Shown: piece after piece, positions 11,696-37,069 of the stretch
How the letters are laid out: the number at the start of each line of letters is the position of its first letter
Numbering within the stretch: position 1 is the first letter of the stretch
Assembly (NCBI RefSeq): GCF_003731635.1
Contig: NZ_RCUA01000007.1
Span: 124-64,123 of the forward strand
DNA: 64,000 nt
From: Marisediminitalea oceani
GTDB taxonomy: Bacteria; Pseudomonadota; Gammaproteobacteria; Enterobacterales; Alteromonadaceae
Direction of reading: 5' to 3'
Translations under genes and position numbers: made by a program
Notes under the pieces: model-generated
Told to the model about the DNA's origin: nothing
What the model saw: only the letters and a program-made list of their open reading frames with translations
Database searches by the model: none

Positions 11696-11892
11696 CTTTT
11701 CTTAATTCAAGCGCACAGTTTCGCTTTTATATCACAGATAAGCAGACGGTTGGCAGTTTAGAGGGTGGTGAGTTGGCGCGGATTAGGTAATCAGGCTTTG
11801 ATTCGCGTAGCGCAGCAGTCATAATGCCTCCCCCATTTGGGATAAACCACTCCACCTGCTTACCGGCAGCTATACCATGCAAACGGAATAAT

Positions 11893-13294: not shown

Positions 13295-13590
13295 CTACTG
13301 AAGAGTAAAATACTTGCCCCGATAGTCTCACTCAACAAGCCCCCCGGGAACCTACTATGCACTGCAATAATGCAGCCTGACAAACTTGTCATGCTGCTTG
13401 CCATTATTGACAGATAACTTTCCGTGCAGATGTAAATAAAATGTTGATAAGGCGGCAGTTTTTACTCTGAAATCAGCCAAAACAGGGACTTTATACCAAA
13501 AATATAAGCTGCTTTTAGTTTTCCTTGAACAGGCATAAAGGTTGCTTAGTAGTATGTGTTTCTTCTTCATCATTTTCGGATACTCATACT

Positions 13591-14609: not shown

Positions 14610-14637
14610 AAAGTAGCTCCCTGAAGGGAGCTACTTT
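14610..14637. terminator. Bidirectional terminator between ccpA and the NosR-like gene
   Basis: AAAGTAGCTCCC (14610-14621) and GGGAGCTACTTT (14626-14637) form a perfect 12-bp stem with a four-base loop. A-rich and T-rich flanks serve both directions. The last codons of the minus-strand NosR-like gene lie inside the right arm. Confidence 0.75.
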
Positions 14638-16742
14638 ACTTCCCTGGCCAGCGAGTCGGCGATATCCGGTTTGGCTCGTCTGGTCTTTTTGGCTTTTTTT
14701 AGTGGCGGGCACAAGTCGTCATTATTGTAATAAACAATACACTCCAAACACTGCACACATTCGTTATAGTCCACTTTGCCTTGTGGTGTAATCGCCTTGA
14801 TGTCGCACTTGTGATAGCACATGGTACATGGCTTACCGCATTCCTTGCGGCGGGTTAACCATTCAAATTTGTGGAAGTAGCCAAGTACTGCCAGTCCGGC
14901 ACCTAACGGGCACACGTAACGGCAATAGAATTTATTAATAAACAAACCGAGTCCGAGCAATACCAGGGTGTAGAGCACAAATGGCCAGTAGCGCACGAAA
15001 TGCAGGGTAATGGCGGTTTTAAACGGTTCTACTTCGGAGAGCACTTCGGCAGCCGACAGAGAATAATATGAGGTACCGGCCAGGCCAATTAAGATGGCGT
15101 ATTTAATCCACCACAGGCGGCGGTGCAGGGAGAAGGATATTTTGTACTGGCGAATGCGGAAGCGTTTAGCGACCCAGCCGACCATTTCCTGCAGGGCACC
15201 AAAGGGGCAAAGCCAGCCACAGAAAATCCCGCGCCCGACAACAAATAGGCTGATAAACACATACAGCCACAGGATAAACAGCACCGGATCCATCAGATAC
15301 ACCTGCAAATCAAAGCCATTGATAAAGCTTTGCAGAATGGGGTAGATGTTTACAATCGACAGCTGCCCCTGGGCATACCAGCCAATAAAGAACAGGGTGA
15401 AAAACATAAAGCCCCAGCGCACCTTACGAAATAGTGCTTCATTAGCAGACAGCTTGTGCTGGAAGGCAAAGATGGCGGTAACAGTAATCAGGCTCAGCAC
15501 TAAAATGGTAATGGTATGCCAGCGCATCTTCCATACTCTGACCCATGCCGGTAGTGGCTTTTCCATTACTTCTACTTCGGCGATATCAAACAGGGTTTCT
15601 GGCAGGGCATAGTCGTTGGAAAACTGCGCTTGTTGTTTGATGAGGTGGTTCTTCGCCACCTCGACATTCAGATTCAGTTGCATTGGCACACTGGGGTTAA
15701 AGCCTGATTGTGTATTAACCGCGAACAGCTGCAAATCTTCTGTAGCGGCAATATCACCTTCCAGCGCCTGTGGCTCGAAACTAAAAAAGTTGAGGTCGCG
15801 CATGGCGAACGGCAGCTCATTTTGCGTCAGACTTACCTGGCTGGGTACTGTGCCGGGCTTAAAGTCGGCATCGAGGTAGCTGAAGTAGCCTTCCGACATC
15901 ACCATAAACGCCTGCTCATTAGGCTTTAGCATGGACTGCAGACGATTAAAGGCGTCGTCACCGAGCAGGTTACGACCGATAAGCGGTGAATTAAGGTATG
16001 CGTAATACACTGTAAAAGTGTCGTTAAAATCGGTGTCAAAGGTCTCAGACGGATAGTCATCAAGATCGCTGCCGAGTGCATCCTCAAAGGTTTCTCGACT
16101 GATCTGCCACTCTTTCAGGTAGCCTCTATCGATCAGTTGGGCCGTAGTAAGGGGCTCGTAATTGTCCTGCTTAGCGGTGGCCGCAGGGGCGCTGGCAAAG
16201 CCGGTGAGCTTGTTTCTGGCAACCTGTAGCGCAGAGAGTAACACCGTGTCACTCATAACAATCACCGACACGGTGGCTTTAGTAACGCCGTCTACGTGTA
16301 CGGTGTTGTCGTTCGGGTTAGTGTCGTTAGACGCGCTGTCGACTATGACGCGGTTAGACACATTCTGACCAATGTACTGGTCGAGAAATTTCAGCATGGG
16401 TTCTGGCCCCAGGCCGTGTAAAAAAATAGGTTCGTGGTGGTGCAGAATATCGATGCCGACAATGTTGCCTTGCACATCGATACCAATCAGCAGGTTAATG
16501 CGGTCGCCGGAAAAACCGGGTAATTCTACCAGGTCGTTGCTTTGAAAGGCGTAACCGAGGAGTTCCTGTAACTGATAAACGGGGTAAACGGGATAGTCAG
16601 CTTGCTTTTCGCCAATTACTGTAGCTTTGGGAAACAGTTGCTGAATGCGTTCCGGGGTAATACTTTCTTCAGCGTGGCTGACAGAACAGATACTGAAGCA
16701 GATAACTAACCAAATACCGAGAACAAATGCGAAACGTTTCAT
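14631..16742 (-). CDS. NosR/NirI-like FMN-binding polyferredoxin membrane protein
   Basis: A 703-residue protein with a signal peptide, a periplasmic FMN-binding domain and a membrane part with cysteine motifs. DGVTKATVSV fits the flavinylation site (covalent FMN on threonine). About six helices follow, then CGWLCPFGA and CRYVCPLGA (the two CxxxCP motifs of NosR/NirI/RnfE-like proteins), and a C-terminal pair of 4Fe-4S clusters in CGKPCTMCYHKC and CVQCLECIVYY. NosR feeds electrons to N2O reductase maturation, but no nos or nir gene is here. It lies 108 bp downstream of the PQQ dehydrogenase on the same strand, which suggests a role in that system, for example electron transfer across the membrane; this is inference. 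Confidence 0.85.
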   Translation of the reverse strand: MKRFAFVLGIWLVICFSICSVSHAEESITPERIQQLFPKATVIGEKQADYPVYPVYQLQELLGYAFQSNDLVELPGFSGDRINLLIGIDVQGNIVGIDILHHHEPIFLHGLGPEPMLKFLDQYIGQNVSNRVIVDSASNDTNPNDNTVHVDGVTKATVSVIVMSDTVLLSALQVARNKLTGFASAPAATAKQDNYEPLTTAQLIDRGYLKEWQISRETFEDALGSDLDDYPSETFDTDFNDTFTVYYAYLNSPLIGRNLLGDDAFNRLQSMLKPNEQAFMVMSEGYFSYLDADFKPGTVPSQVSLTQNELPFAMRDLNFFSFEPQALEGDIAATEDLQLFAVNTQSGFNPSVPMQLNLNVEVAKNHLIKQQAQFSNDYALPETLFDIAEVEVMEKPLPAWVRVWKMRWHTITILVLSLITVTAIFAFQHKLSANEALFRKVRWGFMFFTLFFIGWYAQGQLSIVNIYPILQSFINGFDLQVYLMDPVLFILWLYVFISLFVVGRGIFCGWLCPFGALQEMVGWVAKRFRIRQYKISFSLHRRLWWIKYAILIGLAGTSYYSLSAAEVLSEVEPFKTAITLHFVRYWPFVLYTLVLLGLGLFINKFYCRYVCPLGAGLAVLGYFHKFEWLTRRKECGKPCTMCYHKCDIKAITPQGKVDYNECVQCLECIVYYNNDDLCPPLKKAKKTRRAKPDIADSLAREVK

Positions 16743-16850: not shown

Positions 16851-18614
16851 TTAGCTACGAGGCAATTTGAAGGTCCAGACAGTACCACCCTGGTTAATGT
16901 CTTTAACTTTCTTGGCAACTTCACCACCCCACAGAGGAACGGCGCCACCCCATCCAGATACGATGCTCAGGTATTGCTCACCGTCCTGTTCCCAAGTGAT
17001 TGGAGAACCAACGATGCCTGAACCAGTATTGAACTTGTAAACCACTTCACCAGTTTTGGCGTTGAAGCCGTACAGGTAGCCTTCAGGTGTACCAGTAAAT
17101 ACCAGGTTACCTGCAGTGGCTAACACACCGCCCCACAGAGGCGCGTTGTTTTTGAATTCCCAAACAATTTCACCGGTTTTAGGGTCAACGGCTTTAAGTG
17201 AACCGATGTGGTCGTAGATAGGTTTGATAGTGAAACCAGAACCCATGTACGCAGCACCTTTTTTGTAGTTAACTGGCTCATTCCAGATGACCATGCCCCA
17301 TTCGTTTGAAGGTACGTAGAACAGACCAGTGTCCTGGCTAAATGCCATAGGCATCCAGTTTTTACCACCTAAGAAAGAAGGTACGGCAAATACAGTTTTA
17401 CCTTTTTTGCCATCTTCGCTATCAGATGGGTTACCAGGGCGATTTGACTCGTCGTAGATTGGACGACCGTTTTTATCCAGACCTTTCGCCCAGGTAATAC
17501 CGCTTACAAATGGGAAGCCACGGATGAAGTCGCCGTTTTCACGGTTAAGAACATAGAAGAAGCCGTTACGGTCAGCAGTAGCTGCTGCTTTAACTGTTTT
17601 TCCGCGATCTTTATAGTCAAACGCGATTAGCTCGTTAACACCGTCGTAATCCCAACCATCGTGTGGAGTGGTTTGGAAGTGCCATACGATTTTGCCAGTG
17701 TCAGGGTCGATAGCCAGACGCGAAGAGCTGTACAGGTTATCACCAGGACGCAAGTGAGAGTTCCAAGGAGCCGGGTTACCGGTACCCATGAAGATCAGGT
17801 CTTGATCAGGGTCGTAAGTACCGCCTAACCATGTTGCTGCACCACCTGTTTTCCACAGGTCGCCGGTCCAGGTTTTGTTGGCTTTACCACCAGTAATACC
17901 GTTTTCTTTACCGTTCAGGTAACCCATGTGGCCTTCAACAGTAGGACGAGACCAAACCAGTTCACCGGTCATTGCATCGCGGGCTTCAACTTTACCCACA
18001 ATACCGAATTCACCACCAGAGATACCAGTAACTACGTTACCTTTAACAATCATCGGTGCAGCTGTGAAAGAGTAACCTGCTTTATAGTCGCCTAACGTTT
18101 TACGCCACTTTGGCTTACCCGTTTTCTGGTCCAATGCAACCAATTTTGCATCCAGGGTACCGAAGATAACTAAATCGCCGTACAGTGCAGCACCACGGTT
18201 GATTACGTCACAGCAAGGCATGATACCGTCTGGTAAACGAGCTTCCCATTGCCATAATTCGTCACCGGTTTCTACGTCGATAGCGTAGATACGAGAGTAA
18301 GAAGCGGTAACGAACATAATGCCGTCTTTAACCAGTGGCTGTGATTCCTGACCACGTTGTTTCTCACCACCGAAAGAAAAGGCCCAAACCGGACTCAACT
18401 TCTTAACGTTGCTAGTGTTCATTGTGTCGATTGGACTAAAGCGCTGTCCACGTGGACCAAGGCCATAGCTGACCACGTCACCTGGGGTTGCCTGGTCATT
18501 GACGATATCTTTATCTGTCACTTTGGCCTGGGCCATGCCAGTCATAGCACCTAGTGACAGGGTTAAACAGAACGCAGAGCTGAGTAAGCGGCCTGAAACT
18601 CTTTTACTTTTCAT
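16851..18614 (-). CDS. PQQ-dependent alcohol dehydrogenase, lanthanide (PedH/XoxF-like) type
   Basis: A 587-residue periplasmic quinoprotein with an eight-bladed propeller that oxidises primary alcohols to aldehydes and passes electrons to cytochrome c550. Signal peptide [16 protein letters not shown] onward ends at AQA. Active-site residues (this numbering): adjacent cysteines 134-135 (MPCCDV), metal-ligand Glu 202 (GGEFG), Asn 280 (GTGNPAP), catalytic Asp 322 and Asp 324 in WDYDG. The second Asp, two places on, marks lanthanide-dependent enzymes; calcium enzymes have Ala or Ser there. The start at 18614 lies seven bases after GGAG; an ATG at 18635 lacks such a site. The substrate is probably ethanol or other short alcohols, by similarity to ExaA/PedH. 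Confidence 0.9.
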
Positions 18615-18957: not shown

Positions 18958-19857
18958 TTATTCGGTGCGATGGTAATCGGGGATTTCGTAGCTCAGGCCG
19001 TACTCTAAAAACAGTGCTTCCATTTCGCCGTTTTTAATCATCGGTTCGGTGATTGCCTGGATTGCATAAGCCAGCTCCCGATAATCTGTCTTAACTGCCA
19101 TGCCAATATCCCAAGACTTAATGCTCATAGCGGCCAGGCCGTCAGCACTGATGTCATATTGCTCGGGAAGCGGTGCAAATTCGGTTTTGTTAACGTCTCC
19201 CGAGGTACTCATGCCCCATTGCAACTGACCTTTCATTCCGGCCACTGCAGCCACTTTACCTTCCTGCAGCAGTTTGATGCCGTCAAAAACCGAGTCCACA
19301 TGAACCAGCTTGTCACGCAGGCGGCCACCAAGGGTTGCACCGAGAAAGAAACTGGGTAGTGAATCAAGCTCTACGGCAACCGGTTCGTACTGGAATATGG
19401 CCAGGGTGCGAATATCATTGGTTTTTTCGTGGTCACGCAATAGTGCCCAGCTTTCCTGTTGATAGGGGCCGAACATCACTACCAGGTCATTCTTGGGCAA
19501 GCCGTAACCGTCAATGGCGTAGGCAAACTTACGATCGTAAGGTACCCGGAGCATCAAGTCGGCTTTCTGGCGGGTAATAATATGCCCTTTCCAGATCGCG
19601 TTGCGCAGGTCATCCTCGAGGTTTTCGTCAGCGTTGATCCACATCCACTCCAGATCAACGCCCAGTCCCGCCGCTATACGTTTACCTACCTCAATATCTA
19701 CACCGGCAGGTTCGCCGTCCTTGAGATAGGAGTACGGGGGGAAGTTGTTGTAGACAGCAATGGTTATCTGGCCTTGCTCAAGAATATCCTCATAACTTTT
19801 AGCCATAACAGACGTGGCTATTAAACTACAAATCAGAAGAACAACTCTTACTACCAT
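18958..19857 (-). CDS. Periplasmic solute-binding protein of quinoprotein clusters (XoxJ/MxaJ-like)
   Basis: A 299-residue type II periplasmic binding protein (SBP_bac_3 fold). It has a signal peptide (MVVRVVLLICSLIATSVMA), GQITIAVYNNFPPYSYLKDG, and GVDIEVGKRIAAGLG, the classical entry to the fold, with DLMLRVPYDRKFAY. Members next to methanol/ethanol quinoproteins (MxaJ, XoxJ, and the quinoprotein-associated binding proteins) are thought to help activate the dehydrogenase or its PQQ/metal loading rather than serve transport. No permease lies beside it, which supports that. AAGGGG precedes the ATG. It lies between cytochrome c550 and the dehydrogenase. Confidence 0.8.
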   Translation of the reverse strand: MVVRVVLLICSLIATSVMAKSYEDILEQGQITIAVYNNFPPYSYLKDGEPAGVDIEVGKRIAAGLGVDLEWMWINADENLEDDLRNAIWKGHIITRQKADLMLRVPYDRKFAYAIDGYGLPKNDLVVMFGPYQQESWALLRDHEKTNDIRTLAIFQYEPVAVELDSLPSFFLGATLGGRLRDKLVHVDSVFDGIKLLQEGKVAAVAGMKGQLQWGMSTSGDVNKTEFAPLPEQYDISADGLAAMSIKSWDIGMAVKTDYRELAYAIQAITEPMIKNGEMEALFLEYGLSYEIPDYHRTE

Positions 19858-19894: not shown

Positions 19895-20341
19895 TTACTC
19901 TGGCACGCCGCGAGTTTCGATGTACGCTTTGATTGCCCACATTGCTTCCTGAGAAAGAATACCTTCAAACGGAGGCATGTAAACACGGCCATCAACCACA
20001 GCACCGTTACGGATACGTGTCATAAACCAGCCGTCGGCTTCTTCCTGGCTGAAGAATTCAAACTCATCGTTTAGTTTACGCAGATCAGGCGTGATTCCGC
20101 CAGAGATAACTTCCAGACCGTGACAACGGGCACAATTCTGGTTGTAAGCTGAGTCACCGATTTTAATCGCCAGCTCATTGCCAGTGTAAGGGTTAGTCTT
20201 CAGCCACTCATCACCTAATTGTGGTAATTCACTGGTATCTACTGCTTGCGGCGTTACATCACCGTGAGCCATTGCATTAGCGGTTACCAGGGTCAGTACC
20301 GCCAGCATCGCGCTGCGCAAAATAGTTAAATACATCTTCAT
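19895..20341 (-). CDS. pedF: Cytochrome c550-type electron acceptor of the PQQ dehydrogenase
   Basis: A 148-residue periplasmic cytochrome c with signal peptide, GDSAYNQNCARCHGLEVISGG (CARCH haem site), DGRVYMPPFEGILSQEAMW (methionine ligand) and a C-terminal helix AIKAYIETRG. This is the layout of cytochrome c550 (ExaB/PedF/XoxG), which accepts electrons from PQQ alcohol dehydrogenase and passes them to the oxidase. The start at 20341 follows GGAG by about eight bases; an ATG at 20365 is less well placed. It is the first gene of the minus-strand series cytochrome, XoxJ-like, dehydrogenase and shares its upstream region with the divergent pedA1-like gene. Confidence 0.85.
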   Translation of the reverse strand: MKMYLTILRSAMLAVLTLVTANAMAHGDVTPQAVDTSELPQLGDEWLKTNPYTGNELAIKIGDSAYNQNCARCHGLEVISGGITPDLRKLNDEFEFFSQEEADGWFMTRIRNGAVVDGRVYMPPFEGILSQEAMWAIKAYIETRGVPE

Positions 20342-20481
20342 CTCGGTTTCTCCAAAAGCTGCCACATTGAGTTGTCATGCCGTTAAATGTTGCAGGAAAG
20401 TAAAAATAGTCATCAATAAGTTTTCATGTCTACAACAAAGCACAGGGTGAAAGTTAGGAGATCTGGGGTTTCCTTCCAATT

Positions 20482-20501: not shown

Positions 20502-20578
20502 TCATCCTTTTTGCTCATTTCAACTGTGTACAATCATGCTCTACTATTGCACCATAAGGTTAAAAAAGGGTTTTGTTT

Positions 20579-21808
20579 TTGAACATAAAAAAACGGATAG
20601 GTTACAAATTTTACACCTGTTTAACGCGGTTTTCGCAGCACGTTCGCGTCCTGATCGCGTTTGTTGTAGGTGGGATTTTGATGCCTGCAGTGGCTAATGC
20701 CAAGGCACTAAATATAGATGTGATTTATGTTCAGCAATCATCAAACCAGGCTGCGCAGCCCTTATTACTTAAAAAAACGCCCGGCAATCTCACCATCGCT
20801 GGTGCGGAACTGGCCATAAAAGACAGCAATACCACGGGGCGTTTTTTAAAACATCAATACAGTCTTTCTGGTGTAACCGGCGATAACAGCGAGGAAATTG
20901 TAGCGGCCCTTAAGCAACGTCTGAACGGACAGCCGGCTATCCTCCTCACAGACCTGCCCACGACTACGCTGAAAGTAGTAGCTGATTTAGCACTCGCCAA
21001 CTCCAGTGTGATCATAAATGCCGGTGAAGCCGACAATAATTTACGTGTATCTCAGTGCCGTGGTGGGCTGTTACACACTTTGGCGAGTCGCGCTATGTTA
21101 ACCGATGCCATGGCTCAGTTTTTTATGGCCAGACGCTGGCGGGAGTGGTTTGTGATCAGTGGTGAATCTGACGCCGACAAAGCCTATGCTGAGTCAATTA
21201 ACCGATCAGCCAAACGCTTTGGTGCAAAGATAACCGAGCAGAAAACCTGGAGCTTCGATACCGATTTGCGCCGTAGTGCTCAGCGCGAGGTGCCGCTATT
21301 CACTCAGGGCGAAGATTATGATGTTGTGCTGGTGGCCGATGAGTCTGATTTGTTCGGCAACTATATTCCGAACAATACCTGGTTACCCAGACCGGTTTCG
21401 GGCACCCATGGGTTAACCCCAACAACCTGGCACTGGGCCCTTGAGCAGTGGGGCGCTACCCAGTTACAAAACCGTTTTTACGAACAATTTGGGCGCGAAA
21501 TGCTCGACAAAGATTATGCAGGATGGCTGGCAGTGCGGAGTATCAGTGAAGCGGTTACCCGCACCCAATCCAATGACCCTAAAGCCCTTTACTCGTATCT
21601 GATGAGCAATGATTTTGAGCTGGCCGCGTTTAAGGGCCGAAAGTTGAGCTTTCGGCCCTGGAACGGCCAGTTGCGGCAACCGATTCCATTGGTGCACCCG
21701 AAAGGTTTGACCTCTCTGTCGCCGCAGGAAGGGTATCTTCACCCAAGCACTGACTTAGATACGCTGGGATTCGACAAGCCAGAATCACGCTGTGATATGG
21801 CTTACTAA
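20579..21808 (+). CDS. pedA1: PQQ-system ABC transporter substrate-binding protein
   Basis: A 409-residue periplasmic protein of the type I binding-protein fold, with a signal peptide ending near VANAKA. It matches the family of substrate-binding proteins of the PQQ-dependent alcohol dehydrogenase system (TIGR03863-type): GAELAIKDSNTTGRF, LLTDLPTTTLK, WREWFVISG and the FDTDLRRSAQREVP stretch. In P. putida the homologous PedA1A2BC system is needed for lanthanide-dependent growth, so the cargo is probably a lanthanide ion or complex. Start is TTG: 20579 lies eight bases after AAAAAGGG; the nearby 20573 TTG is also possible. The next gene begins 14 bases on. Confidence 0.8.
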   Translation: MNIKKRIGYKFYTCLTRFSQHVRVLIAFVVGGILMPAVANAKALNIDVIYVQQSSNQAAQPLLLKKTPGNLTIAGAELAIKDSNTTGRFLKHQYSLSGVTGDNSEEIVAALKQRLNGQPAILLTDLPTTTLKVVADLALANSSVIINAGEADNNLRVSQCRGGLLHTLASRAMLTDAMAQFFMARRWREWFVISGESDADKAYAESINRSAKRFGAKITEQKTWSFDTDLRRSAQREVPLFTQGEDYDVVLVADESDLFGNYIPNNTWLPRPVSGTHGLTPTTWHWALEQWGATQLQNRFYEQFGREMLDKDYAGWLAVRSISEAVTRTQSNDPKALYSYLMSNDFELAAFKGRKLSFRPWNGQLRQPIPLVHPKGLTSLSPQEGYLHPSTDLDTLGFDKPESRCDMAY

Positions 21809-21822
21809 AAGGTGGTAGAAGT

Positions 21823-22779
21823 ATGCGTTTATTAGTTTTAGCAGCCGGCTTGTTAACGGCACTGGTGAGTCAGGCTGAGGTGGCTTACGTTTCCAATGAA
21901 AAGAGCGATACGTTAACCCTCATCGATGTGGATAAACTGGAAGTCATCGATACGCTGGAGGTAGGAATGCGCCCCCGCGGCATTATCTTCAGCCAGGATT
22001 ATAAATACCTGTATATTTGTGCCAGCGAATCTGATGCCGTGCAGGTAATGGATTTGGCCACCCACAAGGTGATTCACAATCTGCCTTCCGGTGAAGATCC
22101 GGAGCAGTTCGCCCTGCATCCAAACAACCGTCATCTGTATATTGCTAATGAAGACAGTGCAGTGGTTACCGTTGTCGATACCGTAGACCGTACCGTTATC
22201 GCACAAATTGATGTGGGTATTGAGCCGGAAGGTATGGCCGTGAGCCCGGATGGAAAATGGGTTATCAATACCTCGGAAACTACCAACATGCTGCACTGGA
22301 TTGATGCCAGTACCCACGAGCTGGTGGATAACACCCTGGTCGATCAGCGTCCGCGCCATGTGGAATTCAGCAAGTCCGGCGAAAAGGTCTGGGCGTCGGC
22401 TGAAATAGGCGGCACCGTCGACGTTATTGATACAGCCTCCCGGGAGCTGATTAAAAAGATCACCTTTAAAATTCCTGGCGTACACCGCGATAAAATACAG
22501 CCGGTGGGCATTAAACTTACCGATGATGGCAAATATGCCTTTGTGGCACTTGGTCCGGCAAACCATGTGGCGGTAATCGATGCCAGCACCTATGAAGTGC
22601 TTGATTATTTGCTGGTAGGTCGTCGTGTATGGCAGTTAGCTTTTGCCAAAGAACAGTCTTTATTGTTCACCACTAATGGTGTTAGCGGCGATGTGTCGGT
22701 GATTGATGTGGAAGATCTGAAAGTCATTAAAACGATTAAAGCCGGCCGCTATCCATGGGGCGTTGTGGTTAAACCATGA
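21823..22779 (+). CDS. pedA2: YVTN beta-propeller protein of the PQQ-associated ABC system
   Basis: A 318-residue secreted seven-bladed propeller with a signal peptide and repeated VxxxDxxxxxVxxxIxVGxxPxG units, for example GEDPEQFALHPNNRHLYIA and GRYPWGVVVKP. It belongs to the PQQ-catabolism-associated propeller family. In PedA1A2BC it is a periplasmic partner of the transporter; the biochemical task is not known, perhaps metal or chelate handling. AAGGTGG precedes the ATG. The stop overlaps the ATPase start (ATGA), so translation is coupled. Confidence 0.82.
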   Translation: MRLLVLAAGLLTALVSQAEVAYVSNEKSDTLTLIDVDKLEVIDTLEVGMRPRGIIFSQDYKYLYICASESDAVQVMDLATHKVIHNLPSGEDPEQFALHPNNRHLYIANEDSAVVTVVDTVDRTVIAQIDVGIEPEGMAVSPDGKWVINTSETTNMLHWIDASTHELVDNTLVDQRPRHVEFSKSGEKVWASAEIGGTVDVIDTASRELIKKITFKIPGVHRDKIQPVGIKLTDDGKYAFVALGPANHVAVIDASTYEVLDYLLVGRRVWQLAFAKEQSLLFTTNGVSGDVSVIDVEDLKVIKTIKAGRYPWGVVVKP

Positions 22780-23513
22780 GTGATCCGGTATTAGCTGTAG
22801 AGCAAATAGGGTTTAACTACGGCGCTAAACAGGCACTGTCTGAGGTGACGTTTTCACTGTCGCCGGGGGCGTATTATGCCTTGCTTGGGCCTAATGGCGC
22901 GGGCAAGAGCACGCTGTTCTCGATTCTTTGTCAGTTACTGCAGCCGCAAACCGGTAGGGTAACAGTTAATGGCATCAATGCCGCGAAAAAGCCGCGTCAG
23001 GTGTTAAAGCAAATCGGTATGGTGTTTCAGCAACCCACCCTGGATTTAGATTTGAGTGTTGAGCAGAACCTGGCTTATCACGCCAGTCTGCACGGCTTAT
23101 CGAGCGCCTACACAAAACAGCGGATCGATGAAGAATTACAGCGTTTTGCATTAAGCGATCGACGCAAAGATAAAGTCCGCTCACTCAATGGCGGTCACCG
23201 CCGCCGTGTAGAGATAGCTCGAGCGCTGCTGCATCAACCGGCTATTCTGTTGCTGGATGAGGCCACCGTGGGCCTGGACCAGTCCACCCGTGACACGATT
23301 AACGATCACCTGCGCCAATTGTGTAGCGACTCTGGTATCACAATTTTGTCGTCGACCCACCTGATTGACGAAGTGCGCCCCAATGACGAGCTGATTGTGT
23401 TGATCAAAGGTCAGATTCAACTGCAGCAACGTTGTGAGGAGGCCATGCAGGCCCAGCAACTGGACTCGGTGCAGGCGCTTTACCGACACTTTCATCAGCA
23501 GGGGGAGCAATAG
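22776..23513 (+). CDS. pedB: PQQ-system ABC transporter ATP-binding protein
   Basis: A 245-residue ABC ATPase: Walker A GPNGAGKST, Q-loop MVFQQPTLDLDLSV, an unusual signature LNGGHRRRVEIARALL in place of LSGGQ, Walker B ILLLDEATVGLD and a switch His in STHL. The NGGHRRR form is typical of the PQQ-associated ATPase family (TIGR03864-type). It powers the PedC-like permease. The start overlaps the propeller gene by four bases, and the permease follows directly. Confidence 0.88.
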   Translation: MSDPVLAVEQIGFNYGAKQALSEVTFSLSPGAYYALLGPNGAGKSTLFSILCQLLQPQTGRVTVNGINAAKKPRQVLKQIGMVFQQPTLDLDLSVEQNLAYHASLHGLSSAYTKQRIDEELQRFALSDRRKDKVRSLNGGHRRRVEIARALLHQPAILLLDEATVGLDQSTRDTINDHLRQLCSDSGITILSSTHLIDEVRPNDELIVLIKGQIQLQQRCEEAMQAQQLDSVQALYRHFHQQGEQ

Positions 23514-24305
23514 ATGTACTGGACCTGCTTTGTTGGTGTATTAAAACGGGAACTGCTGAGATTCTGGCAACAGCGCTCGCGGCTGATAAGCGCGCTGGTA
23601 CGCCCTTTATTATGGCTGGTGGTGTTTGCGGCGGGCTTTCGTGCTGCGCTGGGGGTAGCGATTATTCCTCCCTATGAAACCTACATCACTTATGAGGTTT
23701 ACATTATTCCAGGGCTGGCCGGCGTGATCATGCTGTTTAACGGCATGCAAAGCTCGCTTTCTATGGTGTACGACCGGGAAATGGGCAGCATGAAGGTGCT
23801 TCTCACCAGCCCCATGCCCCGACCGTTTCTGCTGGTTAGTAAGCTGTTGGCCGGTGCCTGTATTTCCATGTTACAGGTGTATGCCTTTTTCGCCATCGCC
23901 TGGTTGCTGGAGGTGGAAGCTGAGCCAATGGGTTACTTGCTGGTTATTCCGGCTTTACTCCTAACCGCCTTATTACTGGGAGCGCTGGGACTATTGCTGT
24001 CGTCTTTTATCAAGCAATTGGAAAACTTTGCCGGGGTGATGAACTTCGTGGTGTTTCCGATGTTTTTCCTCTCTTCGGCGTTATACCCGTTGTGGAAAAT
24101 GCGCGAGTCGAGCGAATGGCTTTACTGGATATGCCAGTTTAATCCGTTCACTCACGCGGTAGAACTGATTCGTTTTGCGCTTTATGGCCAGTTTAACGGG
24201 CAGGCAGCGCTGGTAACCGGTGTTTGTACGCTGATTTTTACCAGTCTGGCTATTTGGGGCTATGACCCTAAACGGGGCATGGTAAAACGCAAGGTGGGCG
24301 GTTAG
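23514..24305 (+). CDS. pedC: PQQ-system ABC-2 type permease
   Basis: A 263-residue ABC-2 permease with six membrane segments, starting on the base after the ATPase stop. The family signature RELLRFWQQRSRLISALVRP lies near the N-terminus and MSMVYDREMGSMKVLLTSPM in the middle. ABC-2 permeases are mostly exporters, whereas the PedC homologue in P. putida is assigned to lanthanide uptake together with PedA1/A2/B, so direction is not settled by the fold. The last gene of the four-gene operon. Confidence 0.87.
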   Translation: MYWTCFVGVLKRELLRFWQQRSRLISALVRPLLWLVVFAAGFRAALGVAIIPPYETYITYEVYIIPGLAGVIMLFNGMQSSLSMVYDREMGSMKVLLTSPMPRPFLLVSKLLAGACISMLQVYAFFAIAWLLEVEAEPMGYLLVIPALLLTALLLGALGLLLSSFIKQLENFAGVMNFVVFPMFFLSSALYPLWKMRESSEWLYWICQFNPFTHAVELIRFALYGQFNGQAALVTGVCTLIFTSLAIWGYDPKRGMVKRKVGG

Positions 24306-24418
24306 CTCGCTGAATTAACAAACGGATGGATTATCCTGATAGCCGCGGTAAATAAAGGCTGGCTGAATGACAGTACATCCACTAATATAACTTACAGAGC
24401 ATTTACAGGGTGATAAAA

Positions 24419-25087
24419 ATGGTAGAAATTCTCGTCGCTGATGACCATCCCTTATTTCAATATGCAATCACCGATTTCGTTGAGCGTAATATTCCGGACA
24501 CTAAAACCATCAGTTGTATCGACCTTGAAGAAGCACTCAATACAGCAGAAGAAAACCCCAACATTGATTTAGTGCTACTCGATCTGAATATGCCAGGCAT
24601 GGATGGCCTTAACGGTATCGTGCGTTTTCGTAATCAGTTCCCTGAAATTCCTATTGTTATTGTGTCGGCAGAAGAAGATAAAAATGTCGTGCTGCAGGCC
24701 TTTACCTATGGCGCGGTAGGGTTTATCACCAAGTCTTCCAGCTGTGAGCAGATTGTGGGTGCGCTCCAGCAGGTACTCTCCGGTCAGGTATATTTGCCGC
24801 CGGATATCATCCGCAATGGCGGAAGCACTAAGCCCAAGGAAGACTCCGCTCAACAGCAAATCGATCCTAAGTTGATTGGCGCTTTAACCCGCCGCCAGTT
24901 ACTGGTGTTTGAGTGTATCGCCAAAGGTAAGTCTAACAAGCAGATTGCCTATGAGCTGAATATTGCCGAAACCACAGTGAAGGCTCACGTGTCGGCTATT
25001 CTTACTAAGCTGAATGTACATAACCGCATCCAGGCAGCGCTTTGTGCGGCCAGTATCGACTTTAACCAGTATCTGATGCGCAATTAG
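24419..25087 (+). CDS. LuxR-family response regulator (AgmR/ErbR/PedR1-like)
   Basis: A 222-residue two-component regulator: a receiver domain (acid pocket ADDHP, phosphoacceptor Asp in LVLLDLNMPGMDG, later T/K in TKSSS) and a NarL/LuxR helix-turn-helix, LTRRQLLVFECIAKGKSNKQ with AETTVKAHVSAIL. It matches the AgmR/ErbR/PedR1 type that activates PQQ alcohol-dehydrogenase genes. It follows pedC by about 110 bases. No kinase lies beside it; the hybrid kinase at 27350 is a candidate donor. The ATG at 24419 is preferred over GTG 24410 on ribosome-site spacing. Confidence 0.85.
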   Translation: MVEILVADDHPLFQYAITDFVERNIPDTKTISCIDLEEALNTAEENPNIDLVLLDLNMPGMDGLNGIVRFRNQFPEIPIVIVSAEEDKNVVLQAFTYGAVGFITKSSSCEQIVGALQQVLSGQVYLPPDIIRNGGSTKPKEDSAQQQIDPKLIGALTRRQLLVFECIAKGKSNKQIAYELNIAETTVKAHVSAILTKLNVHNRIQAALCAASIDFNQYLMRN

Positions 25088-27349: not shown

Positions 27350-30040
27350 TCAGGTTTTTGCGTTTGATAACAGGTTAGATAACGCCAGCTTCATCTTATG
27401 AGGCTTCACGGGCTTATTAAGCAGCGAATAGCCTTTTTCCCGTACCTTCTGGCGCAGCTCATTGGTATAGTTGGCCGTGATCATAATAACCGGTGGGTGC
27501 GGTATTAAATGCTGATGAGTAATTTCCAGTGCGTCAAAGCCAGTATCGCCATCGTCCAGGTGATAATCGGCAATGATAAGCTGAGGGTCCAGCTCGGTTA
27601 AGAACTCCGGTTCTTGCAATTCTTCCAGGGTTTGTACCGAGGTAATGTTGCAATTCCAGCTGCCCAGCACCGTTTCCATGCCTTTACAAATTTCATCGTC
27701 GTTATCGATAAGTAAAATTCGCGCCCCTTCGAGTTGATCGTTGAAGCGGTCGATTAACGGTGCTGGAGTCGGTTTAACCCGCTGGGCAAGCTTATCTGCA
27801 TAGGGCAGGGTGATGCTGAAGCAGGAGCCTTTGCCCTCTACTGAACGAACATTAATGGTATGGTTCATCACACTGGCGAGCCGTTCTACAATGGCCAGGC
27901 CTAAACCGAGGCCTTTATCATGACGGCGTTTCTTGGCATCCAGGCGATTAAACTCGTGGAAGATTTCACTCAGTTTGTCCTGCGGGATACCAATACCGGT
28001 ATCAAAAATCTGAATTTGTAAGCCTGCCTTGCGCCGCCTTACGCCTACTAAAATACTGCCTTCGTTGGTGTAGCGAATTGCGTTGCTGAGCAGGTTGCGC
28101 AGGATCCGCGCCAGCAGATAAGTATCTGAATGAACCAGTGTTTGAGTGGTCTTTACTCTCAGCCTGAGGCCTTTACCCTCTGCCTGAGGGGTAAACTCAT
28201 TCACCATATTGGTAATTAAGTCGTCGATTTCAAAATCATCCAGAACCGGTTCAATCAATCCGGCCTCAAGCTTTGAAATATCTACCAGCGCACTGATTAG
28301 CGACTCGAGGTTTTCCAGTGAGTAGCTTAATGAACGAATAAGTTTCTGTGCTTCTTCGCCAAGTATCAGATCGTTTAAGGCATCGGCAAATAAACGGGCT
28401 GAGTTCATGGGTTGCAGCAAGTCGTGACTGGTGGCGGCGAGGAATTTCGATTTCGACTCATTGGCCTGGTCGGCTTCCCGTTTTGCCTCCAGCAGCTTAA
28501 TTTCGGCCAGTTGTCGTTCTTCAATTTCGTTGCGTAACTGCAGGTTAATTTCAGAAATCTTTTTGGTGCGCTGGTTTACCCGCTGCTCCATGTAATCATA
28601 GGCATGCTTAAGGGCCCGGGCGGTGCGTCGCTGCTCGGTAACATCCTGCTCCAGAGCAAAAAAACCAATGACGTTGCGCTGCTCGTCAAAATGGGGGATG
28701 TAGGTTTTGTTTGAGATCCGCACGTTATCCGGATCACGGCTGTGTTCGAGCTCAAAGTTAACCGCCTGGCCGAGCATGGCACGGGCAATATGGATGGTGA
28801 GGGTCTGATACTCTTTATGGCCAAGCACGTCACTGAGGTGATGATTAATAATTTCGTCCCGTGAGCGGTTAAACCACTTTTCAAACTCGCGGTTAACGAA
28901 TTCGTAGCACAGATCTTTGTTAACATAGGAAATCAGTGCTGGCATGGCATCGGTGATCAGGCGGATACGCTGTTCACTTTCGCGCAGGGCAATCTGATTG
29001 CGACTGCGTTCGGTAATATCGGCAAAGGTGATTAGTATGCCGCCGCCGGGGATCAGGTTGCGCCGCACCAGTAATACCAGGTTTTCATCGAGCATCATCT
29101 CGACTTCCAGGAAGTCCTTATCCGGTGCCACATCAAAGGAAATGGCGTCAAACAGGGCTTTGGCAAACACGTTTTGTTGCATGAGTTCGGCAAATACATC
29201 GCCGCGTTGAACACCGCTGTCCGACAAGCCTAACAGCTCGAAAAAGCGCTGATTCCAGGTTTCGATTTGCCTGTCAGCGTTAATCAGTACAACGCCCTGG
29301 CTCATGTTTTCCAGGGTGGCTTTGAGGAGCTCAGCCTGTTCGGTCATGGCGGTCTCGTAGCGGACCTCTTCGGCTAATTTTATATTGGTGATATCGGTAT
29401 ACACCACCACCAGGCAGTTATCGTTAGTTTTACGCTCCTGCATCTGGATCCAGGTGCCATCGCGCAATTTAAAGATGGTCTGGGCAATCGGATCGGGATA
29501 AACGCCCACTTTTTTCTGCGCTTTGGCTTTGTGATCAACCAGTACCAGCGAGGCGGCGGTGATTTCCTGAAAAGAGGTTTTGCCCAATTCGTAGGTAATA
29601 TTGTGCTGTTGCCAGAATTCGGCGCAGCGGCTGTTTACCATTACCATTTTGCGGTCTGCATCGAACAGGGCGAAGGCATCGGAAATACTCTCAATAGCGT
29701 CACGCAGACGCTGACGATCCTGTTCGGCCTGAATCTGGCTTTTCTCTGTTTCCCGGCGGGCCAGTTCGAGCTGTTGGTTGGACTCTTCCAGACGATGCAG
29801 GGTTTGCTGCAGGCGGTAGGTGCGCTCTTTTACCTTATCGGCGAGCATGGCTGCGCCTTCAAAAGACTGATAGGCATCACTGTGATTGCCCCACCCCATT
29901 TCTACCCGACGCATCAGCACGCGGTTTATTTTCTGCAGCTTCTCGTTTTCGTAGCGCAGCCGTTCGAGCTCATCTTCGCCGGCTATTTCCGGCGACTCAA
30001 CGGCTACTTCAGGCGTCAGTGGACTTGAGGTCGGTTTCAA
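27350..30040 (-). CDS. nahK: NahK/ErcS'-like PAS hybrid sensor histidine kinase
   Basis: An 896-residue soluble hybrid kinase. The order is N-terminal coiled coil (GDELERLRYENEKLQKI and WGNHSDAYQSF), three PAS domains, HisKA with H-box FLAATSHDLLQPMNSARLFA, HATPase (N-box LRNLLSNAIRYT, G1 DTGIGIP, G2 GLGLGLAI), and a receiver with Asp in LIIADYHLDDG. The PAS and coiled-coil content fit NahK/ErcS'. In P. aeruginosa NahK sits with NosP and ties NO to biofilm control, and ErcS'-type kinases lie by the ethanol-oxidation genes. TTG at 30040 lies six bases after GGAG inside nosP; TTG at 30052 is an alternative. It overlaps nosP. Confidence 0.85.
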   Translation of the reverse strand: MKPTSSPLTPEVAVESPEIAGEDELERLRYENEKLQKINRVLMRRVEMGWGNHSDAYQSFEGAAMLADKVKERTYRLQQTLHRLEESNQQLELARRETEKSQIQAEQDRQRLRDAIESISDAFALFDADRKMVMVNSRCAEFWQQHNITYELGKTSFQEITAASLVLVDHKAKAQKKVGVYPDPIAQTIFKLRDGTWIQMQERKTNDNCLVVVYTDITNIKLAEEVRYETAMTEQAELLKATLENMSQGVVLINADRQIETWNQRFFELLGLSDSGVQRGDVFAELMQQNVFAKALFDAISFDVAPDKDFLEVEMMLDENLVLLVRRNLIPGGGILITFADITERSRNQIALRESEQRIRLITDAMPALISYVNKDLCYEFVNREFEKWFNRSRDEIINHHLSDVLGHKEYQTLTIHIARAMLGQAVNFELEHSRDPDNVRISNKTYIPHFDEQRNVIGFFALEQDVTEQRRTARALKHAYDYMEQRVNQRTKKISEINLQLRNEIEERQLAEIKLLEAKREADQANESKSKFLAATSHDLLQPMNSARLFADALNDLILGEEAQKLIRSLSYSLENLESLISALVDISKLEAGLIEPVLDDFEIDDLITNMVNEFTPQAEGKGLRLRVKTTQTLVHSDTYLLARILRNLLSNAIRYTNEGSILVGVRRRKAGLQIQIFDTGIGIPQDKLSEIFHEFNRLDAKKRRHDKGLGLGLAIVERLASVMNHTINVRSVEGKGSCFSITLPYADKLAQRVKPTPAPLIDRFNDQLEGARILLIDNDDEICKGMETVLGSWNCNITSVQTLEELQEPEFLTELDPQLIIADYHLDDGDTGFDALEITHQHLIPHPPVIMITANYTNELRQKVREKGYSLLNKPVKPHKMKLALSNLLSNAKT

Positions 30041-31217
30041 TGGGCGCTCCAATCGCTACGCCAGTAAAAGTATGGTTCAAGTGTAACCCATTTATTTGCT
30101 CACCGTAGGTATTAAATCCGATCATATGATTGGCACGGTAAAGCTCTGACATGGCATCTTCCAACTGGTATTTATCGATTTCAGCGCGGCGGTGAGTACA
30201 GTCAAACCCAATGAGTAAATCAATCTCGCCTACGTTGCGGCGAATATCATTAAGGATCATGGTGGAGTGAGCATGCAGCCCGCTGGATTTCATCTTGGTC
30301 AGCACAATCCCGGCGTCAATGGCGCAGAAAAAAGTCAGGCTTAAATCATCGTTCACCTGCTGGATGCTGCGGATATACAGGTGGTCGCCAATTTGCACTG
30401 CCAGAGGGTGCATGGCGAAAACTTCTGAGGTTAGTTCCTCGAGCTTTAAGCCGTTTATGCGGCAATACTCCAGCGCAGCCGGTTCGGCATTAAACTCTTC
30501 CACCACCCGTTGTCCCGGTGCGGTTTGGGTAACCACCAGCTTGTCGTTTTCGGGCGCTAAATGATGGTGGCTGAATACATCAAAATAACAGTTGGTATTA
30601 ATCAGCATAAAAACTGCTGCGCTACTGTAAAAGCGACCGTTGCAATAAATCTGGGTATCGACAAAGTGCTGATCATCCCCGGCTGATCCGCCTACCAGCG
30701 GAATATCCTGCATACTCATATTGAGTACATCGATAACCAGCTCTTCCCGAATAGATAAGCCATCCAGTAAGGTCATGCCGAAAGAATGTTGTTCTACCGG
30801 TCCGGGGGATACGGCTTTGCTGCGCAGCTTGTCGAGCATGGAGTTAACCAGTTCATCGGCATCGTGCTCTGAAAAGGCCGCCAGATTTTCGATCAGCACG
30901 GTTTCTACGGCGAAGTGCTGTTTACTGAGGGCAAAGGCGCAGATGGAGTGCTTGCGGCAACCATCGGGCGTTATTTCGCCGGCAGAAGTACAGCCAATTA
31001 CCGGGATGTCGCCAAAATAGCGGTTTAATTCTTTCGACAGTTGTTCCAGCGGATACCGGGTACAACAATAAAAAACGACACATGCTGCTTCACATGGCGC
31101 CAGTGCATTGTAGATGTCCCGTGCTGCAATGACAGGGTCAAGACTTTCCGATCCGGCTCTGGCCACAGAAGGTGAGTCGAAAACTTCAACGGTTTGACTA
31201 ATTTGTTGCGACAGCAT
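30009..31217 (-). CDS. nosP: FIST-domain protein of the NosP family
   Basis: A 402-residue FIST protein (FIST_N and FIST_C): SQQISQTVEVFDSP, CVVFYCCTRYPLEQLSKELN, IPVIGCTSAGEITPDG, and GIVLTKMKSSGLHAHSTM. NosP proteins bind haem and sense nitric oxide, relaying it to the partner kinase encoded next to them. AGGGA lies six bases before the ATG. The gene overlaps nahK by about 30 bases and both are transcribed together. Haem binding is known for the family and not shown here. Confidence 0.85.
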   Translation of the reverse strand: MLSQQISQTVEVFDSPSVARAGSESLDPVIAARDIYNALAPCEAACVVFYCCTRYPLEQLSKELNRYFGDIPVIGCTSAGEITPDGCRKHSICAFALSKQHFAVETVLIENLAAFSEHDADELVNSMLDKLRSKAVSPGPVEQHSFGMTLLDGLSIREELVIDVLNMSMQDIPLVGGSAGDDQHFVDTQIYCNGRFYSSAAVFMLINTNCYFDVFSHHHLAPENDKLVVTQTAPGQRVVEEFNAEPAALEYCRINGLKLEELTSEVFAMHPLAVQIGDHLYIRSIQQVNDDLSLTFFCAIDAGIVLTKMKSSGLHAHSTMILNDIRRNVGEIDLLIGFDCTHRRAEIDKYQLEDAMSELYRANHMIGFNTYGEQINGLHLNHTFTGVAIGAPIETDLKSTDA

Positions 31218-32872: not shown

Positions 32873-32878
32873 CAGTGC

Positions 32879-34255: not shown

Positions 34256-35773
34256 TTAGAAAAAGCCCAGTGGGTTGATGTCGTAGCTGGTCAGCAGGTT
34301 TTTGGTTTGCTGATAGTGGTCGAGCATCATTTTGTGGTTTTCACGGCCCACACCTGATTTCTTGTAGCCACCGAATGCTGCGTGTGCAGGATAAGCGTGG
34401 TAGCAGTTCATCCATACACGGCCGGCTTCAATGCCACGGCCCATGCGGTAGGCAAGGTTAGTGTCACGAGTCCATACACCCGCACCCAAACCAAACTCAG
34501 TATTGTTAGCAATAGCCAGTGCTTCTGCTTCGTCTTTAAAGGTGGTTACGCCAACAACCGGTCCGAAGATTTCTTCCTGGAACACGCGCATGTCGTTAGA
34601 ACCTTTCAGCAGGGTAGGTTGTACATAGAAACCGTTGCTGAAGCCTTCAACGTTGGCAGGACCGCCACCGATAAGCACTTCGGCGCCTTCTTTCTTACCT
34701 AACTCAAGATAGCCCAGGATTTTTTCATACTGCTGAGCAGATGCTTGTGCACCCACCTGAGTATCGGTATCCAGTGGGTTACCACGTTTGATTTGTTGTG
34801 TACGAGCGATAACCAGCGAGATAAAGTCATCGTACATATCTTCCTGAATCAGCGCACGTGATGGACACGTACAAACTTCACCCTGGTTGAAGAATGCCAG
34901 TACAGTACCTTCAACACATTTGCTCAGGAACTCGTCTTCATGCTTCATTACGTCGCTGAAATAGATATTTGGCGACTTACCACCCAGTTCTACAGTCGAT
35001 GGGATGATGTTGTCTGCAGCGCATTTCAGGATGTGAGCACCCACGGGAGTTGAACCAGTAAAGGCAATTTTTGCGATACGCTTGTTAGTTGCCAGTGCTT
35101 CACCCGCTTCTCTACCGAAACCGTTTACGACGTTCAGTACACCCGGCGGTAACAGATCGCCGATGATTTCCATCAGTACCAGAATAGACGCAGGGGTTTG
35201 TTCAGCAGGCTTCAGAACGATACAGTTACCGGCAGCCAGTGCAGGTGCCAGCTTCCACGCTGCCATCAGCAGTGGGAAGTTCCACGGTATAATCTGACCT
35301 ACAACACCCAGCGGTTCATGAAAGTGATAAGCAATGGTATTTTCGTCAATTTCGCTGATGCCACCTTCCTGAGCGCGGATACAACCGGCAAAATAGCGGA
35401 AGTGGTCGGCGGCCAGTGGAACGTCAGCGTTCAGGGTTTCACGCACTGCTTTACCGTTATCCCAGGTTTCCGCTACTGCCAGGGCTTCCAGGTTAGCTTC
35501 GATACGATCGGCAATTTTAAGCAGGATATTAGAGCGTGCTGCTACTGAAGTCTTGCCCCAGGCTGCTTTTGCTTTGTGAGCGGCATCCAGCGCTAACTCG
35601 ATATCTTCAGCCGTTGAGCGTGGGATTTCGCAGAATTTTTCGTTGTTAACAGGTGATACGTTATCGAAATACTGACCTTTAACGGGAGCAACCCACTCGC
35701 CGCCAATAAAGTTTTCGTATCGTGATTTAAATGAGACGACAGAATTTTCTGTTCCAGGTGCTGCATAGATCAT
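34256..35773 (-). CDS. exaC: NAD-dependent aldehyde dehydrogenase of the alcohol pathway (ExaC-like)
   Basis: A 505-residue class III-like aldehyde dehydrogenase: [35 protein letters not shown], base glutamate in VELGGKSPN, catalytic cysteine in [11 protein letters not shown]. It oxidises acetaldehyde or other short aldehydes to acids, making NADH. It lies in the same locus as the PQQ dehydrogenase, and in Pseudomonas exaC sits beside exaAB, so it is likely the second step. The ATG at 35773 follows GGAG by eight bases; an upstream ATT at 35794 is not convincing. The porin is upstream and NDH-2 beyond. Confidence 0.9.
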
Positions 35774-35874
35774 GTTGCTTACTCCGGTAATCAATTATAA
35801 AAGCGTTGCCAGATTGTCGGTTTTGCGGGAGCCATGATTAAGCTCCCTGACCGGCACCGACTGCCGTAAGACAA

Positions 35875-35905: not shown

Positions 35906-37069
35906 CTAAAAGTTTACGATGGCACCAACGGCAAGAGTCTGAGCTTCTTCCTGACCCAGAATTCCAGAGAACTCGCTGGTCGAATATTCCACTGCAAAGG
36001 TGACGTTGCTGTTATAGCCATAGAACCAGGCAGCTTGCATACCTTCGTGACCGATGTAGTCGGTGTCTTCGATTTCGTTCTCGCCATAAGAGAGTACGAA
36101 ACGATTCGCATCCATCTTATAAGAGGCCTGCAGGATGTAGCCTTCGCTATCGAGCGCGTTATAGGTAGTTGGGTCATACATGGTGATCGGCGCTAAACCC
36201 AGTGCTGCTTCTGTGGGGCCTAACAGAATGCCGATACCTTCACCGCTGTAGCCTGATGCGTGCAGTGATAAACCACCAAAGCCTACTTTTACACCGTATG
36301 AAGCGCCGTTTGAGTCAACGTCACCCATATCAGATTCAGAGGTTTGCGACAGGAAACCCACCCATGCAGTGACTGATGCGTCGTCGAAAGTGCCGCTGTA
36401 GGTCACTTCACCCTCAAAACGAGGTGCAGATTCTTCGCGGTCAGCATCGCCATTCACTGGCGAAGGATCGACAGCCGCAACGGCTACCTTGAAGCCACCA
36501 CCGAAAGACGGCGAGGTATAACGTATTTGCGACGCTGGGAACGGATAAGTGTACCCGCTGCCGAGGTTACCGAATGATACGCCCTGGCCATCAACCAGTC
36601 CCAGCGTATCATTGACATTGCCGTAACCAAGCAGGACTTCGTCTAAGAAAACGTTGCTGCGGTTAAACAGTGTGAAATCTTTACCAATCAGTAATTGACC
36701 CCAGTCGGCATCCAGCGTCGCGTAAAACTGACGAACATCGATACCGGTTGAGGTAACACCACTGTTAGAATCGTTGATGGTTACCCAGAAAGATGAGCGA
36801 CCGCCCACTTTCATGTCACCAATCTGCTTACTGAAGTTCATACCCAGCCAATTAGGCAGGAAACCCATTTTAACGCGGGATTGGTCACGGTCACCGTTTG
36901 GACCGTTATCAACAGACGTTGTGGTGTAGAATGTGTTGAATGACGCGTCAACCGATACGGTAGCCACTTCGGCATCGTCGTAAATGGTGATTGCGGCATT
37001 GGCTGAAGCTGAAGAGAGTGCAAGTAAGGCAACGGCTAGCGGTTTGCACGCAAATTTATTATTTTTCAT
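35906..37069 (-). CDS. Outer-membrane porin
   Basis: A 387-residue barrel with a signal peptide (MKNNKFACKPLAVALLALSS), long amphipathic strands and an aromatic C-terminus (VGAIVNF). It is of the general diffusion or substrate-selective porin type. GAGGG lies six bases before the ATG. It stands beside exaC and shares its upstream region, with a putative operator, with the divergent ndh gene; a role in solute entry for the alcohol pathway is an inference. The N-terminal part reads ITIYDDAEVATVSVDASFNT. Confidence 0.78.
   Translation of the reverse strand: MKNNKFACKPLAVALLALSSASANAAITIYDDAEVATVSVDASFNTFYTTTSVDNGPNGDRDQSRVKMGFLPNWLGMNFSKQIGDMKVGGRSSFWVTINDSNSGVTSTGIDVRQFYATLDADWGQLLIGKDFTLFNRSNVFLDEVLLGYGNVNDTLGLVDGQGVSFGNLGSGYTYPFPASQIRYTSPSFGGGFKVAVAAVDPSPVNGDADREESAPRFEGEVTYSGTFDDASVTAWVGFLSQTSESDMGDVDSNGASYGVKVGFGGLSLHASGYSGEGIGILLGPTEAALGLAPITMYDPTTYNALDSEGYILQASYKMDANRFVLSYGENEIEDTDYIGHEGMQAAWFYGYNSNVTFAVEYSTSEFSGILGQEEAQTLAVGAIVNF

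Follow-up and report, generated by a model that had tools for sequence, protein, structure and literature searches.

A predicted lanthanide-dependent PedH/ExaF-type alcohol dehydrogenase and its NosR-like neighbor in a marine gammaproteobacterium

The closest described relatives of the enzyme analyzed here are PedH of Pseudomonas putida KT2440 (PDB entries 6zcv and 6zcw) and ExaF of Methylorubrum extorquens, which belong to PQQ alcohol dehydrogenase type 2b. Purified P. putida PedH is reported to be active only with lanthanides, and its metal site is described as differing from that of PedE by an Asp in place of a Ser (PMC5487730). PedH-dependent growth of P. putida at nanomolar La reportedly needs PedA1A2BC (PMC6839425), and the ped cluster is reviewed in PMC12997753. 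According to an ocean survey that used the same Asp-x-Asp criterion as we did, lanthanide-type PQQ dehydrogenases, type 2b among their families, occur in 20% of 1,888 marine MAGs (PMC11996626). Since many marine genomes are reported to carry such enzymes, a system of this kind is not unusual in the sea, and the enzyme described below is not novel in kind. Our literature search, which had partial coverage, found no paper joining Alteromonas, lanthanide, PQQ, and alcohol dehydrogenase, and the case may already have been reported.

The window (i.e., the whole stretch of 64,000 nucleotides analyzed here) encodes what is very probably a lanthanide-dependent ethanol dehydrogenase of the PedH/ExaF type accompanied by its usual partners, with the lanthanide dependence being a prediction. 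The gene and its motifs are the following:

16851..18614, minus strand: PedH/ExaF-type PQQ alcohol dehydrogenase, predicted lanthanide-dependent, 587 aa (TIGR03075, identity, tree, AlphaFold2 model)
17640..17654, minus strand: W-D-Y-D-G with catalytic Asp322 and lanthanide-type Asp324 (D-Y-D codons 17643-17651; sequence and alignment columns)
17766..17786, minus strand: GTGNPAP with metal ligand Asn280 (sequence and alignment columns)
18003..18017, minus strand: GGEFG with metal ligand Glu202 (sequence and alignment columns)
18198..18215, minus strand: CCDVIN with adjacent Cys134-Cys135, the vicinal disulfide of the dehydrogenase family (sequence and alignment)

The frame starts with ATG, an in-frame TTG at 18635 is a possible alternative start, and the N-terminus, as judged by eye, resembles a signal peptide. 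Read from the TTG, the frame passed the TIGR03075 model for PQQ methanol/ethanol dehydrogenases (787.8 bits; cut-off, 480.05). By both sequence and fold, the top PDB matches were 6zcv and 6zcw, whose titles name the lanthanide-dependent alcohol dehydrogenase PedH of P. putida. The AlphaFold2 model was nearest to 6zcw (rmsd 2.5 over 563 alignment columns); its mean pLDDT is 76, with local values below 50 near Glu202 and immediately following Asn280, for which reason we claim no metal geometry from it. Identities over aligned columns were 70.1% to 6zcw, 56.9% to 1flg, 41.9% to 1kv9, and 39.1% to 6dam. One scan yielded at least 591 relatives of the dehydrogenase, and the nearest named relatives among the matches listed belong to Alteromonas/Aestuariibacter, in agreement with the original prediction of a marine gammaproteobacterium. 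Matches also occur in 583 plasmid records, 88 of them at 60 to 80% identity, including Sphingobium and Pseudosulfitobacter plasmids.

The original prediction had placed W-D-Y-D-G near 17643-17651, with a Glu in GGEFG and an Asn in GTGNPAP, and all three motifs were found on the minus strand at the positions given above. Glu202, Asn280, Asp322, and Asp324 align with the metal site of 6zcw, and both Asp residues are invariant in a 23-sequence alignment. We then compared the site across a family set of 201 sequences (i.e., the window protein, 4 PDB references, and 196 frames from fetched loci), which was reduced to 196 sequences by the removal of 5 exact duplicates. The Glu, Asn, Asp, and +2 columns read E-N-D-D in 146 sequences, E-N-D-S in 25, E-N-D-T in 17, E-N-D-A in 7, and D-N-D-T in 1; the 80 named loci in this set were retrieved with the window protein itself, which biases the counts toward its own kind. 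Among the references, the +2 residue is Asp in PedH (6zcw) and XoxF (6dam), Ser in ExaA (1flg), and Thr in the type II quinohemoprotein 1kv9. The window protein is E-N-D-D like 6zcw and 6dam and unlike 1flg and 1kv9, as expected by the original prediction, which assigned Asp at +2 to lanthanide enzymes and Ala or Ser to calcium enzymes. One point of that rule needs correction, in that the non-Asp groups include Thr in addition to Ala and Ser. The adjacent cysteines, whose function we take from PMC12997753, also occur in calcium relatives and do not discriminate the PedH/ExaF type 2b enzymes.

Phylogenetic analysis placed the window protein in the same group. The tree was built without the motif columns from the 95 rows remaining after thinning at 85% identity, by a quick search without bootstrap; six long rows were marked as uncertain, all of which lie outside the PedH clade. 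The window protein and 6zcw fell in a 43-row clade with the second Asp in all 43 rows (SH-aLRT, 98). The sister group of this clade consists of 10 rows, 1flg among them, all with Ser (SH-aLRT, 100), and the XoxF rows, like those with Ala or Thr, lie outside the PedH clade. The tree was also a check on whether the protein would group with calcium enzymes despite its Asp, and it did not. The distribution of the +2 residue matches the branching of the tree, so that the second Asp is a marker of groups and not a chance feature. Asp-x-Asp is also present in the glucose dehydrogenase family, and the motif is thus diagnostic only inside the methanol/ethanol family of PQQ dehydrogenases. Even there, metal heterogeneity has been described within families thought to be purely lanthanide or calcium types, with type 2b being named (PMC11996626), and one Ser-type PedE is reported to have retained 50 to 80% activity with lanthanides added (PMC10409515); the +2 residue is accordingly a good but imperfect predictor of the metal.

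Compared with PedH and ExaF, the window enzyme has the same fold, the same ligands including both Asp residues, and the same adjacent cysteines; it carries WDYDG where they have WDFDG, and both forms occur among its kin. The calcium ethanol dehydrogenases ExaA/PedE (1flg) share the family, the fold, and the cytochrome c550 partner, but they have Ser at +2, form a separate clade, and are 57% identical. The XoxF methanol dehydrogenases (6dam, 4mae, and 6oc5) share the Asp-x-Asp metal site, as read for 6dam, but they also form a separate clade, and 6dam is only 39% identical.

The genes around the dehydrogenase include the components of a ped cluster:

18958..19857, minus strand: PedG/XoxJ-like periplasmic binding protein (SBP_bac_3 PF00497, 46.1 bits; cut-off, 26.4; position between pedF and pedH in kin)
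19895..20365, minus strand: PedF cytochrome c550 (TIGR04494, 202.7 bits; cut-off, 122)
20573..21808, plus strand: PedA1, ABC substrate-binding protein (TIGR03863, 471.6 bits; cut-off, 413.6)
21823..22779, plus strand: PedA2, beta-propeller protein (TIGR03866, 522.7 bits; cut-off, 287.3)
22776..23513, plus strand: PedB, ABC ATPase (TIGR03864, 317.3 bits; cut-off, 302.25)
23514..24305, plus strand: PedC, ABC permease (TIGR03861, 451.2 bits; cut-off, 241.35)
24410..25087, plus strand: ErdR-like response regulator (best NCBIfam model ErdR, 176.4 bits, below the cut-off of 390)
27350..30052, minus strand: NahK/ErcS-family hybrid histidine kinase (NF041832, 496.2 bits; cut-off, 400)
30009..31217, minus strand: NosP nitric-oxide-sensing protein (NF041558, 508.4 bits; cut-off, 450)
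34256..35794, minus strand: ExaC acetaldehyde dehydrogenase (NF050026, 958.7 bits; cut-off, 900)
35906..37069, minus strand: outer-membrane porin, putatively for alcohol entry (Porin_4 PF13609, 77.5 bits; cut-off, 27)

The genes pedF, the pedG-like gene, and pedH form one row on the minus strand, from which pedA1, pedA2, pedB, and pedC (20573-24305) diverge, an arrangement with the same PedF/PedG-like neighbors and PedA1A2BC as in the PedH and ExaF systems. PedF and all four transporter proteins scored over their cut-offs, which bears out the claim that a PedA1A2BC cluster adjoins the dehydrogenase; the PedG-like assignment draws only on the SBP_bac_3 match and position. In 80 named-genome loci, we found PedG-like proteins in 69, PedF in 68, PedA1 in 52, PedA2 in 51, PedB in 50, PedC in 45, and ExaC in 44; these counts tend to be low, as many of the loci end at contig edges or span only 10 kb, and a few PedB matches at 26 to 33% identity may be other ABC ATPases.

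Several further genes lie in or near this island. An ABC transporter (31398-33874, minus strand), whose binding protein is weakly sulfonate-type-like, recurs near pedH (permease in 11 and binding protein in 9 of the 80 loci). NosP and the NahK-family kinase (27350-31217, minus strand) sit inside the alcohol oxidation island and, in many kin, also beside the NosR-like gene described below, a placement from which a tie between NO signaling and alcohol oxidation is possible. We rejected as a part of the system an MbnH/MauG-like di-heme peroxidase gene (13525-14604, plus strand; convergent with the NosR-like gene), which is near pedH in only 2 of the 80 loci. A pentapeptide-repeat protein (11824-12492, plus strand) scores far below every Qnr cut-off and is near pedH in only 1 of the 80.

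Cofactor supply and the search for a calcium-type paralogue were addressed at the level of the host genome (4.99 Mb, 90 contigs, rated 100% complete). On another contig, pqqB, pqqC, and pqqE scored over their NCBIfam cut-offs, and short frames judged by eye to resemble pqqA and pqqD stand in a row with them. Exactly one TIGR03075 gene exceeded the cut-off. The absence of a calcium-type partner, originally noted for the window, thus extends to the whole genome at this cut-off, and no calcium counterpart to which a rare-earth switch could turn was detected at that level, which distinguishes the host from bacteria with a PedE-type counterpart to PedH/ExaF. Three other candidates were discarded as paralogues. 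A quinohemoprotein of 722 aa that has a cytochrome c within it scores below both the TIGR03074 and the TIGR03075 cut-offs, a 423-aa frame on contig C14 is a candidate BamB from its size and score, and a 132-aa frame at C32 is too short for a dehydrogenase. The 722-aa quinoprotein (window position 63185 to the right edge; 3309-5477, minus strand, in locus L009) carries the cytochrome c domain as an insertion in its propeller and has an Asp-x-Asp of its own (W-D-R-D); it is glucose-dehydrogenase-like and yet below the cut-off of that model.

Taken across 246 genomes of the host's bacterial family, a match of the methanol/ethanol dehydrogenase family at 1e-60 was present in 30. Three of these (G161, G169, and G177) have the Thr type only, while 27 carry the PedH type; 26 of the latter proteins are full length, each with the Asp or identical to a row that reads Asp, and the remaining one (G118) is a C-terminal fragment in which the motif was not readable. 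No other family match at 1e-60 was found in 22 of the 27 PedH genomes, with up to five candidates per genome scored. Most PedH carriers of this sample thus have the lanthanide-type enzyme alone, in contrast to P. putida with its PedE and PedH pair.

The observations on this PedH-type system comprise its sequence, site residues, clade, neighborhood, PQQ genes, and single family member over the cut-off; among them, the alignment, the tree, the neighborhood, and the lone TIGR03075 gene agree with a PQQ alcohol dehydrogenase of type 2b beside lanthanide importer genes, a conclusion that we regard as supported. The rare-earth-dependent alcohol oxidation system originally proposed is likewise predicted by these lines of evidence. 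By analogy with P. putida PedH and the review cited above, PQQ would act in the periplasm together with an Ln3+ ion bound by Glu202, Asn280, Asp322, and Asp324, and the enzyme would convert ethanol and other short alcohols to aldehydes. On the same grounds, electrons would exit via the PedF cytochrome c550 to an oxidase, PedG would help load the enzyme, and PedA1A2BC would import the lanthanide. ExaC would oxidize the aldehyde in the cytoplasm.

The less expected part of the locus is the gene directly downstream of pedH, which is separated from it by 108 bases and which accompanies PedH in every PedH-bearing relative checked in the host's family:

14631..16742, minus strand: NosR-like membrane flavo-iron-sulfur protein of a ped-associated group, 703 aa (NosR model, 655.5 bits, below the cut-off of 1000; clade; co-occurrence)

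No match to the NosZ model TIGR04244 was found in the host genome. We rejected a true NosR function on the basis of that result, the score under the NosR cut-off, and the separate clade described below. No solved structure matching the protein was found. Relatives of the NosR-like protein in the 246 family genomes split into two groups by score, with none between 626 and 528 bits. The upper group is present in 27 genomes, which are exactly the 27 with PedH, and in none of the other 219. The lower group (i.e., classic NosR) is present in 41 genomes, exactly those in which nosZ was matched (in 40 of them over the cut-off); one of them, G125, has two fragments only, which were sorted by their low scores, the larger being beside nosZ. 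A single genome, G198, is in both groups. Shared ancestry would inflate any p-value calculated for this co-occurrence.

A NosR tree (58 rows, thinned at 80%) separated the same groups. A row counted as ped-group if it reached at least 550 bits in BLAST, and as nosZ-type if NosZ lay next to it or if it came from a family genome carrying nosZ. All 25 ped-group rows grouped together (SH-aLRT, 98), apart from 26 nosZ-type rows with one unlabeled row among them; an outer branch comprises three rows from genomes that carry PedH/ExaF, one of which sits on a very long branch. Like NosR and the NapH-like flavinylated proteins described in PMC8238504, the ped group has the Ala-Thr of the FMN site (Ala156-Thr157; 41/41 ped-group and 42/42 nosZ-type rows) and the 12 cysteines of the membrane and 4Fe-4S motifs (C508-C678; kept in 40 or 41 of 41 ped-group rows, with one row gapped). 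It differs in the residue before Ala-Thr, which is Lys/Arg in 41/41 ped-group rows and Gly in 41/42 nosZ-type rows, and in occurring with PedH, not nosZ, in the family sample. No NosZ was seen in approximately 39 ped-group loci, all but three of which (L228-L230) have PedH, ExaC, or NosP within reach. In 29 named-genome loci picked by score (approximately 10 of which repeat genomes already counted), NosZ was found in none, and PedH, ExaC, pqqB/C, NosP, a porin, or NDH2 lay within ~1.5 kb in 18 and not in the other 11.

Outside the host's family, the pairing is only partial, and we discarded a universal association of the NosR-like gene with PedH. In a sample of the class (60 of the 115 listed matches were aligned; the rest scored at most 660 bits versus 743 for the lowest PedH-clade row), 12 genomes fell in the PedH clade. 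Three of them carry a NosR-like protein of the ped clade, two carry one of the outer branch shared with Methylorubrum, one has the nosZ type only, and six have no NosR-like match at 1e-60, with up to three candidates per genome scored. The one ExaA-only genome noted in this sample (G364) lacks a gene of the NosR-like clade. Of 49 named PedH genomes, 29 have a match above 600 bits, 10 have weaker matches only, and 10 have none; the 29 were sorted by bits alone, across a gap (602 to 545) that is narrower than that in the family (626 to 528).

A survey of flavinylated proteins (PMC8238504) lists 172 genomes in which a NapH-like cluster occurs with an ExaA-type oxidase, and it proposes that the flavinylated protein takes electrons away from the oxidase, a task of cytochrome c in other microbes; the category used there does not appear to separate PedH from ExaA. 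This proposal, made for another cluster, is a misfit here, where PedF stands in the same gene row and coexists with the NosR-like protein. Our literature search, again with partial coverage, found no other paper linking NosR with PQQ or alcohol dehydrogenase. We tentatively suggest that marine PedH systems might have a second dedicated redox partner beside PedF, namely a distinct NosR-like clade of membrane flavo-iron-sulfur proteins, which would shuttle electrons between PedH in the periplasm and either the membrane or the cytoplasm, whether to mature the enzyme, to repair it, or to give it another outlet to the quinone pool; this partner would be tied to the lanthanide enzyme and not to PQQ enzymes generally, and bacteria like the host might be wholly lanthanide-reliant for the oxidation. 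Alternatively, the gene could be an unrelated passenger of the island that takes no part in oxidizing alcohols. Its distance of 108 bases from pedH makes joint transfer likely from linkage alone, many PedH genomes outside the family are without it, and no marker gene lies within ~1.5 kb in 11 of the 29 named loci and in all three class loci (L228-L230). We nevertheless consider this unlikely. Within the family, the gene stays with PedH through several gene orders (in 25 genomes with both genes on one contig, the gap between the matched stretches is <1 kb in 6, 1 to 6 kb in 13, and about 21 to 22 kb in 6; the two genes are on different contigs in 2 genomes), and at least five genera mix members having both genes with members having neither. 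The NosR-like gene can have ExaC, pqqBC, NosP, or the porin as a neighbor in other taxa, and the FMN site and cluster cysteines are kept.

With regard to the metal, an enzyme that accepts Ln3+ and, more weakly, Ca2+ would be well matched to a genome that has no calcium paralogue over the cut-off, the state shared by 22 of the 27 PedH genomes at up to five scored candidates each, and the ocean survey takes the motif to indicate "at least facultative" dependence (PMC11996626); we regard such flexibility as improbable, since P. putida PedH, which is 70% identical and has the same ligands, is reported to be active only with lanthanides (PMC5487730). Least probable is an ExaA/PedE-type calcium enzyme in which the second Asp is fortuitous: the fold and three of the four ligands are common to calcium enzymes, and seawater contains Ca at ~10^-2 M versus lanthanides at ~10^-11 M (PMC11996626), but the protein groups with the all-Asp PedH rows even in a tree lacking the motif columns, is closer to PedH (70%) than to ExaA (57%), and is encoded next to lanthanide importer genes.

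Read as a lanthanide-dependent PedH-type system, the locus is a clean example from a marine heterotroph without a calcium fallback among the methanol/ethanol-family PQQ dehydrogenases. Alteromonas is a genus that grows in culture. Given the lack of such a fallback, growth of the host on ethanol by way of PQQ should require rare earths, whose concentration in seawater is put near 10^-11 M (PMC11996626). The co-occurrence of the NosR-like gene provides a concrete, deletable candidate for an overlooked electron transfer partner of PedH-type enzymes.
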